A DNA stretch of 64,000 nucleotides from Pseudovirgaria hyperparasitica (Eukaryota > Ascomycota > Dothideomycetes > Acrospermales > Acrospermaceae): contig NW_022985550.1 in assembly GCF_010093815.1 (NCBI RefSeq), forward strand, positions 1,315,074 to 1,379,073, read 5' to 3'. Below are positions 56,896 through 64,000 of the stretch, piece after piece. The notes below the pieces were generated by a model, which worked only from the letters and a program-made list of their open reading frames with translations, made no database searches and was not told where the DNA came from. Position numbers and translations under genes: made by a program. Position 1 is the stretch's first letter. Every line of letters begins with the position of its first letter.

Positions 56896-59069
56896 ATGAG
56901 AACGTTTGTCGACGATTCCGATGATGGTGGAGGTGACACAGTTAGCGAGAGTCAGTCGCCTGTGTCTGCCAAAGGAAACCCAGCCGAAATATGTGAAGTC
57001 GAAGAGACGCAAGAAGCAGCTTGTGCAGGTCTCGGTATGGAATGCTAAAAAGCATTGAAGGACACTCTTTGACAATGTAAAGCTGACTCAGTCAAGGACA
57101 TTCCGTTGAGGCCTTCACACCCCTCGTCGAACATATCACTCCTCTGAGACCCTCGAGTAAACGTAGGAGAACGATCAACGGCCACGTTACTGATAGCTCT
57201 CCTACCAAGCGGTTGGAAAGAAGTAAGACCATGCGAACTTATGGAAAGCCAACGCAGCATAGAGCTGCAGATTATTCAGAGATCAATGAGACTTTTCGAA
57301 GAACACAGTTCACCCAGGGGGATACTTCGGCCATCAAGTCTTCGAATCAGTCGAGAAATCCAAGTAGCCAGACGATTCATAGTGAGATGACCCAAGCCTG
57401 GCATTTACCCGCGTCTCTACAGCAAGAATTTGCTTTACACGAGCCAAACGCAATGTTCCCCGACCCATCAAGCACAGTGCCAGACAACAGCTCGACACAG
57501 AAACACCTCGTTCAAGATGCGATCGACGCCTTTAGAGCCCCTACAGTCGTGGAGATTTCTGTGACAGATTTCACTACCCAGAAGACGAACGAATCCTCCG
57601 TGCCGTGGTCAGACTACCTTCAGACGCAACCTGCAGAACCTGCCAAAACCCCGACGAACGCTGCAGCCCCAGAACCCCCTTCTACAACAGACCACACAGC
57701 TTTTCTTGATACACTACCAAAATTGAGTGATTCTTCTACTAGAAAGCGAAAAGCAACTAGTTCTCAGATCATTGGGACGCCAGATCAGGGAGTAGATTCA
57801 AGTCAGACGAAGCACCGGAAAGGCTACGCTAGTAGCACTATAGATCCTCTTGATTCTGATGAATTGGCTATTGATCTACCACAGGAGATGTATAAGCCTA
57901 GGCCGAGTCGATCACGATCTGCGAGATATGCGGACGATCCAATTGACTCGTCTGCGACCCTCCAGAGATTTAGTCGAAAAGTACCCAAGCGCAGCAAGAC
58001 AAGTTCGGAATGTGCAACGCACACAATGCAGCTGTCATCATCTGAAAAGATAGAAATGATATGTGCCATGGGATTCACCAGTTCTCAAGCTCATAACGCT
58101 CTACAGAGATCATATGGAAGTCTTGAGAAAGCTGTCGATCAGCTCTGTAACGTTGAATCCCAAGGACCGCATCAATCTGTCGAGGAAGTATCTTTTGTTG
58201 TCCAGACCAATGTACATCCTTCGAAAGATATCGATGAAGCGCAAGTGAAAACTTCGACCGAAGAAGTCACAAGTGTTGCAACTGTAACTGCAACTGGAAC
58301 TTCTATCCCTGTGCCACCAAAAGCAGTAGATGAGCCGACACAGAAAGAAGTCAAAGCCATCATTGACTCTGAAGATGAAGGCGATATCGACTCACCGATT
58401 ACTGAGAACGCAGAATATGTGCTTGCTAAGGAAGCCAATGGCACCTCGGCTGTAGAAGAGGATTTAGATGAAGAGCAGGGAACGGATGAAGACGCTGCTG
58501 TCGATATGCGCACGAAGATGAGGAGAACCAAGTCTATGCCGGTTCTTGCTGTTCAACGAAAAAATGAAGGGACGAAAACCAAAAAGCGACGTGGTCGTCC
58601 ACGAAAGGAAGCGGAAGTCGAGCTCGAGGATAGTCCAAAGCTCATCGACAAAGATTGCGGAAAGACACGTAAAGGTAGGGGCAGACCCCGCAAAAATGTC
58701 GACATAGTCCTGGAAAATATCGAAAGTCTGGTTGAAAAAGAGTTCGACGAAAAGGCCGAAGCTAAGACTGACACGGCGGTCGCAGAAGAAAAGAGCAAAG
58801 TTACCACTGCATTGACGGAGGACTCTCCTAATCCGAATGCCGTCCGTACAGTATTGCAGGCCCACTCACCTCCATCTACTCCGCCTCAGCAGCTACCTGC
58901 GTCAGCGCGGGATAGACCGGAAAGCAGGCACGGTCCTGAGCTCCTCTCACCGAAGAAGCCGAAAGCTCTGAGTCCTCATTCGCCATTGATGAAAGGCAAG
59001 GTCTCATATAGAGTGGGATTGAGCAGGAGGGCTAGAATAGCCCCGTTGCTACGAATTGTCAAGAAGTAA
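56896..59069 (+). CDS. UBA and AT-hook domain nuclear protein, unknown role
   Basis: Two exons, 56896..57034 and 57097..59069, give 703 residues. Most of it is disordered and Ser/Thr/Glu-rich. A UBA-type domain is visible at about residues 360-397 (SSEKIEMICAMGFTSSQAHNAL, then GSLEKAVDQLCN), with the MGF loop that contacts ubiquitin. Two AT-hooks follow, KRRGRPRK near 542-549 and KGRGRPRK near 572-579, for minor-groove DNA binding. The last 25 residues, YRVGLSRRARIAPLLRIVKK, form a basic block that looks conserved. I infer a chromatin-associated ubiquitin-binding protein, possibly in DNA repair or silencing, but recognise no named homologue. The 62-bp intron (donor GTATGG after CTCG) is one of two possible donors. 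Confidence 0.75.
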
Positions 59070-60786: not shown

Positions 60787-63700
60787 ATGAAGTTCGGTCA
60801 TAACCTACCAAGGAACCAAGTTCCCGAGTGGGCTTCGTCTTATATTAACTACAAGGGCTTGAAGAAACTTATCAAGTCAGCACAAGAAACGGAGCGACAA
60901 GGCAACGAGGCTGATCTGGTTGGTAAGTGACTGCGATTGTGATGGTTCTTCAGGAGAACTGAAGCTCTATCTCGTACCACCCCGCTTTTTGGAGGGGAGC
61001 TCTGACCAGTGTCAGAGTTTTTCTTCTCGCTTGATCGCAACTTAGAGGACGTGGACAGCTTCTATTCGAAGAAATATGGGGAATCGGCGCGCCGACTGCG
61101 ACTTCTTCATGATCGTTACGGTCGAATGATCAAAGAACCGGACGGTCTTGATAAGGAAGAGGTCGATGATCTCATGGGAGCATTGTTAGAGCTCAGGGGC
61201 CAATTAAGAAAACTGCAATGGTACGGTGAAGTCAATCGTCGCGGCTTTGTAAAAATCACGAAGAAGCTGGACAAGAAAGTACCAAACTCCTCGGCTCAGA
61301 GACAATATCTAGCCTCCAAGGTCGATCCGAAGCCTTTCGCTACCAACAATCTTCTGGCTGCGGATGTAAAAGCAATTAATGATTGGCTTTCGGCGCTCGG
61401 AGACGCGAAGACTTTTGATGATGCGGGATCAGTTGGCTCAATTTCCTCTATGCGAAGAGGCACTTCTCGGGCGGCATTGAATCTCTCCCAATCCTTTCTG
61501 GACGAATTAGAACAGACCATTCGAGCTGACGATGCGGACACATTAATGGCTAAGCTAGCCGAGATCAAGACAGAGGAGGATCATGCGAGCGCTGCCTATC
61601 AGCAGCTTCTGCTTAACCTACTTCAACGCGCGATTTCGTGCAAATGCAGGAAAACGCTAGTTGCCCTGCTGCCAATCATTGACTCTTTGGAAGAGGACGA
61701 CGATATGAACAAGCGAAATTGTATCCATCGGCTGGTGATCTCTATTGGGAGAATCAAATCTGTCGACACACCCTCAAATTCAGGGGCACATAAGCCGTCG
61801 CCTGCGGAGGCGCCGAGCTTCATTGTGCCTGCAGCATCGCCAATGTTGGTACCGGCGCCCTGCGCAACGACCGAGCAAGAATCCGCACAGTTCCTCGGGA
61901 AACAAGATGAGATGGTCCGGCTGTTGACATTCCTGCTCGATAACCTAGAGCCAGAACAGCGAAAATCACTTGGTTCACGAGATGCATATGGACGGCTGCC
62001 TCTGCATTATGCAGCACAATATGGGTTCGTCGTGATATGCCAAGAAGTCATCAAACATATGCAAGACTGGGGTCAATTCGATGTCTCTCACTCAATAGAT
62101 TCTGAAGACTGGCAGGACGCTGAGGGCTACGCGCCGCTCCATCTTAGCGTGATCGGCGGTCATGCCCTGACTGCTAAGTGCCTACTAGATGCTGAGAGGT
62201 GGAAAGGTGCGTCTTATGAGATGCGAGATACCAGGAAACGTATAGACAAATCCGGGGCAGTACTGATGTTAGCCACGAAATCGAATGCAATCTCCATCGT
62301 AGAACTTCTTGTCGAAGCTGGTGTCGATATAAACCATACTGATGAGCAGGGTGAAACCGCTCTCCATGTGGCCGCACACTTTGGCCACACTAGATGTGCC
62401 GAAATTCTGCTTAAGGGGACCGACGACCAGAAAGCCGATGTCAACATACCAGAAACGACATTTGGGTGGACTCCGCTCTTCGTTGCTAGCGTTGATGGCA
62501 ACCTCTCCGTTGTAGAACTTCTGATTGGCGCTGGGGCAGACGTAGATAGGGTTGATCTATCTGGGTGGTCTGCCAAAGAACATGCAGCACTCAGGGGTCA
62601 CCTGGGAATAGCTCAGAAAATTGCGAGTCTATCACCTTTACCGGAACTGTCCACGTCGGACACGTCTTCACCCAATAGCTCTCCACCCCAGACACCAGCC
62701 CTCGGGCCTCAACGCATAAACGGAAAGCACGGCAAAATCCATACTGAAGCAACCAAGACATTTGGACATCGATATCTCACCAATCAAAGTATGATACTAG
62801 TCAGTTTGGGCAGTATGGACTCCAGGAAGAACTTTCCTGCAGTAAAACTAGAAGATATTCCCTTGACAGACGCGCACTCTACACAGCTTGACACCGCTCT
62901 GTCGATTGTGGTATCAGCCAATGGCGCGTCTGGTGAGCCTACCATCATCGATCTTCCTGTGCAAGAAAACATCAGCACAACCCCAATCACATTCATGACG
63001 TCCGACGCTTCGAAAGTTAAGCTTTTGTTTGACATTGTCCCGACCTATGCAGGTTCAAAGGATCGAGTCGTAGGCCGGGGAGTTGCCTTGCTGTCCACAA
63101 TCAGGCCAAATGTTGGCTCCAGAAGAATCTCTTTACAGGGTGATATTAGTGTCCCTGTCATGGCGGCCAGCACGCTGGACGTTATCGGCTCTGTGAATTT
63201 CAATTTCTTGATTATTACGCCGTTCCAGCATCCTAATATGTCTCTAACCGAAGACCGCACATATTGGAAAAGTATGGAAGATTCGACAATGGTTATCGGG
63301 CATCGAGGTAAACACGTCGTATCATTTGACTGGTGCTTTCTCAAACTTTCCAATAGGCATGGGCAAGAATCAGGCGGCTCAGAGGTCACTACAATTGGGT
63401 GAGAATACCATTGAGGTTTGTCGGTCTTTTCGTTTGCGAAACGTTTCTCTTAACGGTCGGTGCAGTCCTTCATAGCTGCCGCAAATTTGGGAGCTTCATA
63501 CGTCGAGGTAAGTCAGTCTGAAACTTCACACGGAATTCGCTAATGAGACTGTAGTTCGGTAAGAATTCCCCTAATGAGCCTGTGCTATCTCTGACGCATA
63601 ACAGATGTGCAGTTGACGAAGGATCATGTACCCGTCATTTATCATGACTTTCTTGTCAGCGAGACGGGCATAGATGCTCCTGTTCATACCCTCACTCTAG

Positions 63701-64000
63701 AGCAGGTAGGAGTTTCTGATGGGAATTGAAAGCACGACTGACATCCGTAGTTCCTACATGTGAGCGAACAGCGTACTCCTCGACATTCTCGTCCAGTCTC
63801 TCCTTCCGAGTACAAAGATCCTTCGAATAAGGGTTCGAAGGAAGGTCATCGAACACGATCCTACTCTGTGGGTTTACCACATGATGCTCGAAACACTGAC
63901 ATGAGCGAACGGATGAAGCACACGCGTGACTTCAAAGAAAAGGGCTTCAAAGGTAACAGTCGGGGTAACGCGATTCAGGCGCCTTTCACAACTCTCGAAG
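60787..64000 (+). CDS. GDE1: GDE1-type glycerophosphodiesterase (SPX-ankyrin-GDPD), 3' end cut by window
   Basis: Hydrolyses glycerophosphocholine to choline and glycerol 3-phosphate; the SPX domain senses inositol pyrophosphates or phosphate status. Exons seen: 60787..60922, 61016..63307, 63357..63415, 63466..63507, 63555..63558, 63605..63705 and 63751 to the edge. SPX begins MKFGHNLPRNQVPEWASSYINYKGLKKLI. Ankyrin repeats lie around residues 300-560 (AYGRLPLHYAAQYGF, EGYAPLHLSVIGGHAL, QGETALHVAAHFGH, GWTPLFVASVDGN). The GDPD barrel starts VIGHRGMGKN (His 808, Arg 809), runs LGENTIESFIAAANLGASYVE and continues VQLTKDHVPVIYHD. The catalytic E-F-D (843-845) is spread over three exons through a 4-nt exon. 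The gene runs off the right edge inside the GDPD domain. Confidence 0.93.

Follow-up and report, generated by a model that had tools for sequence, protein, structure and literature searches.

The locus described here raises the question of how a gene of Pseudovirgaria hyperparasitica whose coding sequence is interrupted within its catalytic motif comes to specify that motif intact, and whether the four bases (TTCG) lying between the interruptions are a fixed part of the message or a means of switching the enzyme on and off. The gene is situated at the end of the window, by which we mean the whole stretch of 64,000 nucleotides that was analysed, and runs beyond it.

Anatomy and splicing of the catalytic site

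The exons of the gene are 136, 2292, 59, 42, 4, 101, 298, 401 and 204 nt in length, and the spliced model, read past the end of the window, comprises 1178 codons with no internal stop. Pfam analysis of the product revealed SPX, ankyrin repeats, C2_GDE1 and GDPD in this order, all above the cut-offs, with the GDPD match (184.4 bits) extending over residues 808-1126, microexon included. Judged by these domains and by its motif, the gene is of the GDE1 type and specifies a predicted SPX-ankyrin-GDPD glycerophosphodiesterase. The anatomy of the site, as established here, is given in Table 1. Upstream of GDE1 and on the same strand is a 660-codon open frame (57087-59069), which contains what we take to be a UBA-like stretch and two AT-hook-like RGRPRK motifs.

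Table 1. Position of the GDE1 gene and of the elements surrounding its microexon (window numbering)
Feature	Position	Strand	Description
GDE1 gene	60787-64000 (part in window)	+	nine exons; continues to 64759
Exon 4	63466-63507	+	42 nt; ends GTCGAG; last codon GAG = Glu843
Intron 4	63508-63554	+	47 nt; phase 0; GTAAGT...CTGTAG; CTAAT branch-like site 11 nt from end
Microexon TTCG	63555-63558	+	4 nt; Phe844 codon and first base of Asp845 codon
Intron 5	63559-63604	+	46 nt; phase 1; GTAAGA...AACAG; CTGAC branch-like site 10 nt from end
Exon 6	63605-63705	+	101 nt; opens with last two bases of Asp845 codon; reads ATGTGCAG from 63605
Candidate second donor GTCAGT	63512-63517	+	4 nt downstream of main donor; scores second of 14 GT
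Candidate acceptor CAG in exon 6	63610-63612	+	8 nt downstream of main acceptor

With the microexon included the letters read GAG TTC GAT GTG CAG (E F D V Q) and the product Y-V-E-F-D-V-Q-L-T-K-D. Lying between two GT-AG introns, TTCG is a microexon by the size criterion of about 30 nt or less, and the letters are as the sequence-only reading had described them, with GTAAG donors and AG acceptors belonging to the four bases themselves. A CTRAY site is found 10-11 nt from the end of introns 4 and 5, and a motif of this type in 11 of the 15 introns of the gene and its paralogue on contig C13 (see below).

The residues expected of the active site are H808, E843, D845, H858, E976 and K978, and the H-35-E, E-15-H and E-2-K spacings equal those of Schizosaccharomyces pombe Gde1, the two proteins having been compared by these spacings. 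In the latter enzyme the metal ligands are given as Glu845, Asp847 and Glu968, and the E845A-D847A allele is described as behaving like a deletion (PMC8749416); Glu44 and Asp46 are named as ligands in an archaeal GDPD (PMC4926365). The E and D also line up with solved GDPD structures in the four alignments shown among ten matches. The earlier statement that these two residues are metal ligands in the family is thus in agreement with the S. pombe work (PMC8749416). The description of the microexon as the heart of the catalytic site holds in so far as the exon is required for E-F-D, but it goes too far in that Glu843 is encoded wholly by exon 4 and the microexon contributes Phe844 and a single base of Asp845. 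E-x-D together with the two catalytic histidines is present in the product only when the microexon is included.

Splicings of 63466-63705 were enumerated with GT-AG, GC-AG and AT-AC introns of at least 40 nt, and then of at least 20 nt, the target being a stop-free E-x-D[VILM]..[TS]-x-D. At the former limit the motif was recovered in none of 283 one-intron and one of 6380 two-intron solutions, the one being that with the TTCG microexon; at the latter limit the values were 0/340 and 1/14728. Other junctions that keep E-x-D were sought across the enumerated splicings of this region and not found. The uniqueness of the solution is thereby established, and it bears out the claim that TTCG is needed to obtain E-F-D-V-Q. 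That TTCG (63555-63558) is an internal coding exon of GDE1, four nucleotides in length, is almost certain, the decisive evidence coming from outside the window, in the paralogue described below. When the 97-nt interval was shuffled 20000 times with its dinucleotides preserved, the arrangement AG-TTY-G-GT flanked by two introns of at least 40 nt arose once, and its stricter form (YAG..GTA) never.

Splice-site scores, computed from rough matrices resting on 7 to 14 introns, single out intron 4, to which both the best-scoring donor and the best-scoring acceptor of the stretch belong. Against the microexon solution, the acceptor at 63604 lies outside the six best of 18 AG when the matrix is taken from the seven introns of the paralogue. 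Ranked by summed site scores among in-frame, stop-free two-intron solutions, the microexon solution is third here and fourth in the paralogue; both of the higher-ranked solutions here, and two of the three in the paralogue, reuse the same microexon with a later acceptor, and these later acceptors remove part of the GDPD domain.

Two short introns separated by four bases are also what one would see in a twin intron (stwintron), or in recursive splicing, where one intron lies within a splice element of the other and there is no true exon between them. However, none of the 991 nested GT-AG solutions for the window gene, and none of the 590 for the paralogue, gave the motif, and the protein requires the four bases. 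We consider that there is next to no chance of this explanation being correct, and the pair of introns was not classed as a stwintron.

A second gene with the same exon

A GDPD search of the same genome yielded seven matches, which were grouped into five genes. One of these, on contig C13 (L005, L009; L009:3860-6072), is a second GDE1-like gene with eight exons and an intact frame of 618 codons. Pfam analysis of the first 447 of its 618 residues revealed ankyrin, C2_GDE1 and GDPD, and since the seven SPX matches in the genome are all on other contigs, the paralogue is SPX-less. Its catalytic site reads GTTGAG/GTGAGC...CTCAG/TTTG/GTAATG...CTGTAG/ATGTACAAG, in which a 4-nt exon (TTTG) again results in E-F-D-V-Q; the phenylalanine codon differs synonymously between the copies (TTC here, TTT in the paralogue) while E-F-D is kept. 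Exon lengths around the site (59-42-4-101) are common to both genes, and the intron phase is identical in all seven comparable introns. When the enumeration was applied to the paralogue, the motif was found in none of 315 one-intron solutions and in one of 7708 two-intron solutions, once more that with the 4-nt exon; shuffles holding the microexon pattern numbered 11 of 20000, or three of 20000 in the stricter form. After the second catalytic histidine the two genes differ, with H-N in the paralogue and H-D in the window gene (LMHN vs IYHD).

The two products share 221 identical residues out of 574 aligned. Since differences at codon positions 1, 2 and 3 number 273, 202 and 390, respectively, and the base differs at 50 of the 72 fourfold sites whose residue is shared, the two copies can be taken to be old and to be under selection. 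Between paralogue and window gene, the introns on either side of the microexon are no more alike than shuffled sequences, the score being reached by 2214 and 1676 of 3000 shuffles. Because the same exon is present in both copies while its flanking introns can no longer be aligned, the microexon appears to predate the duplication and to have been retained while neutral sites changed. A comparison with related genes had been proposed in the sequence-only reading; it establishes, within the scope of one genome and two genes, that the microexon is conserved in size, phase and encoded residues.

These data also bear on the notion that the gene is decayed or the assembly in error, the motif being broken and the microexon a coincidence. 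Against it stand the 1178 open codons across nine exons, the fact that its exon lengths and phases recur in an independent gene located on a different contig, and the rarity of the pattern in shuffles of either interval. We regard it as highly improbable.

Introns 4 and 5 contain a 21-column near-repeat around CTAATGAG (63532-63552 vs 63562-63583), which was equalled by 12 of 3000 Markov shuffles. Local duplication as the origin of the exon was considered and rejected: TRF reported no array, and in the paralogue the exon is present although its introns show no repeat of this kind (1140 of 3000 shuffles as high), so that the near-repeat does not explain the exon.

Constitutive inclusion or regulated skipping

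The reading that we favour, with a probability of about 0.88, is that the GDE1 glycerophosphodiesterase gene is functional and that TTCG serves it as a coding exon of four nucleotides, included constitutively; constitutive inclusion would also be the simplest reading. Because introns 4 and 5 are both short and each has its own donor, branch-like site and acceptor, the sites could be paired across each 46-47 nt intron (intron definition), and the introns would be removed in succession. With the first gone, the four bases would form part of an exon of greater size, and what remained would be an ordinary intron. We infer that the microexon is in this way included in the mRNA, and the product, presumably an active enzyme, would carry Glu843-Phe844-Asp845, the Glu and Asp of which would bind the metal ion of the GDPD active site. 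The microexon is probably kept because its loss, or a change in its length, would disrupt the reading frame within the catalytic motif. We would thus have a coding exon of four nucleotides, a length not divisible by three, retained in a catalytic motif through an old fungal gene duplication, and a case which allows intron definition to be tested on exons too small to be defined themselves. Since a gene finder which misses the four bases would lead to the enzyme being called truncated or its active site damaged, the GDE1 models of related fungi merit checking.

The sequence-only reading had suggested instead a regulated on/off switch, in which inclusion would be controlled, for example by phosphate, and skipping would give a truncated message prone to nonsense-mediated decay. 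Removal of 63508-63604 as one intron does result in Y V E M C S stop, as had been stated, and in both genes skipping leads to a stop after three codons; in addition, a microexon acting as a switch has been described in the fungal gene Xlr2 (PMC11121469). A 4-nt frameshift, however, tends to lead to a stop, which is therefore weak evidence for regulation. Here it probably arises from the Leu/Val-Thr codons read in the shifted frame, a stop being formed for two of the four third bases. Moreover, the flanking introns of the two copies are unconserved, as given above, and the RNA is less folded than most shuffles, 196 of 200 and 195 of 200 shuffles folding at least as well (z +1.71 and +1.58), which is to say that its structure is unremarkable. 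The switch is a legitimate idea, but it is unsupported here and we think it unlikely.

Nor does every loss of the microexon truncate the protein. That skipping harms the site is correct for the GAG-ATG join, which stops after three codons, but there are also in-frame, stop-free skips, which lose the aspartate. Joining the donor at 63512 to the acceptor at 63604 (63512-63604 out) gives YVEVNVQ, with E-V-N replacing E-F-D, and joining the donor at 63508 to the acceptor at 63612 (63508-63612 out) gives YVE-LTKD, with F-D-V-Q lost. A single pre-mRNA could accordingly be imagined to provide two full-length proteins, the active enzyme with E-F-D and, without the microexon, a catalytically dead SPX-ankyrin-GDPD sensor; a 4-nt microexon and a 4-nt donor shift would then be interchangeable as regards frame, and splicing could choose between an enzyme and a non-enzymatic regulator. 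The open frame of both microexon-less forms and the rank of the shifted donor (Table 1) speak for this. On the other hand, the paralogue has neither form as a GT-AG single intron, since there the shifted donor is GC and use of the later acceptor leads to a stop, and alternative use of GYNNGY donors is described as mostly noise (PMC4267661). As the common donor GTAAGT itself contains GT at +5, the in-frame skips may be coincidence. We judge this explanation to be very unlikely, more so than the switch, and retain constitutive inclusion as the preferred reading.

Exons as small as this one have precedents. Those of 1 nt and 3 nt are already known from fungi (PMC12940212, PMC5639578), so that to place four bases near the lower limit, as had been done, was an overstatement; a length of 4 nt does not set a record, and a GDE1 microexon appears in no title or abstract start among the literature matches listed. 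The human MPC1 microexon is likewise coding, four bases long and not a multiple of three; it is described as constitutive, its shortening to 2 or 1 bp making no marked difference. It differs in having a strong exon-defining intron sequence, long introns (46-47 nt in the window gene) and experimental proof (PMC9929638). The 1-nt exon of Fusarium CYP621A resembles ours in being fungal, inferred from the frame and a conserved motif, and conserved in related genes, although it belongs to the P450 family (PMC12940212). The 3-nt exons of lipS in Dactylellina haptotyla are also fungal, tiny and located in duplicated genes, but are in frame by virtue of their length and occur in a different gene (PMC5639578). 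Xlr2 of Trichoderma virens provides a further microexon in a filamentous fungus (PMC11121469), and plant microexons of 1-15 nt are similarly conserved and coding, often missed by annotation, and in some instances kept or lost between gene copies (PMC8831610). Whereas the GDE1 microexon is known from sequence, CYP621A has 18 SRA reads (PMC12940212), the Xlr2 switch is glucose-regulated according to its authors (PMC11121469), and the plant microexons were found with RNA-seq (PMC8831610).

Other GDPD genes and wider searches

The microexon is present in two of the five GDPD genes of the genome, these being the two of GDE1 type. No intron splits the site in the C7 gene (E-T-D) or in the C12 gene (E-M-D). 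The C5 gene (L008 / L011, minus strand), which we take to be Pho81-like from its ankyrin-GDPD layout, has no intron at the site either; its GDPD-like part is without both E-x-D ligands (YVRIFVQLT), and no match on C5 was among those listed from the SPX search of the genome.

A DNA search of the organism's own genome with the 240-nt stretch retrieved only the stretch itself. In non-fungal collections, pattern scans returned 52 matches in genome contigs and 78 in viral contigs, none of them a relative by tblastn; in either scan, one of the two patterns allowed at two positions an erroneous letter as an alternative to the correct one, taken from the window gene. Lastly, the C12 gene has one in-frame TGA inside its GDPD match (L002:2053-2055), which is an intron, an error or the mark of a damaged gene.
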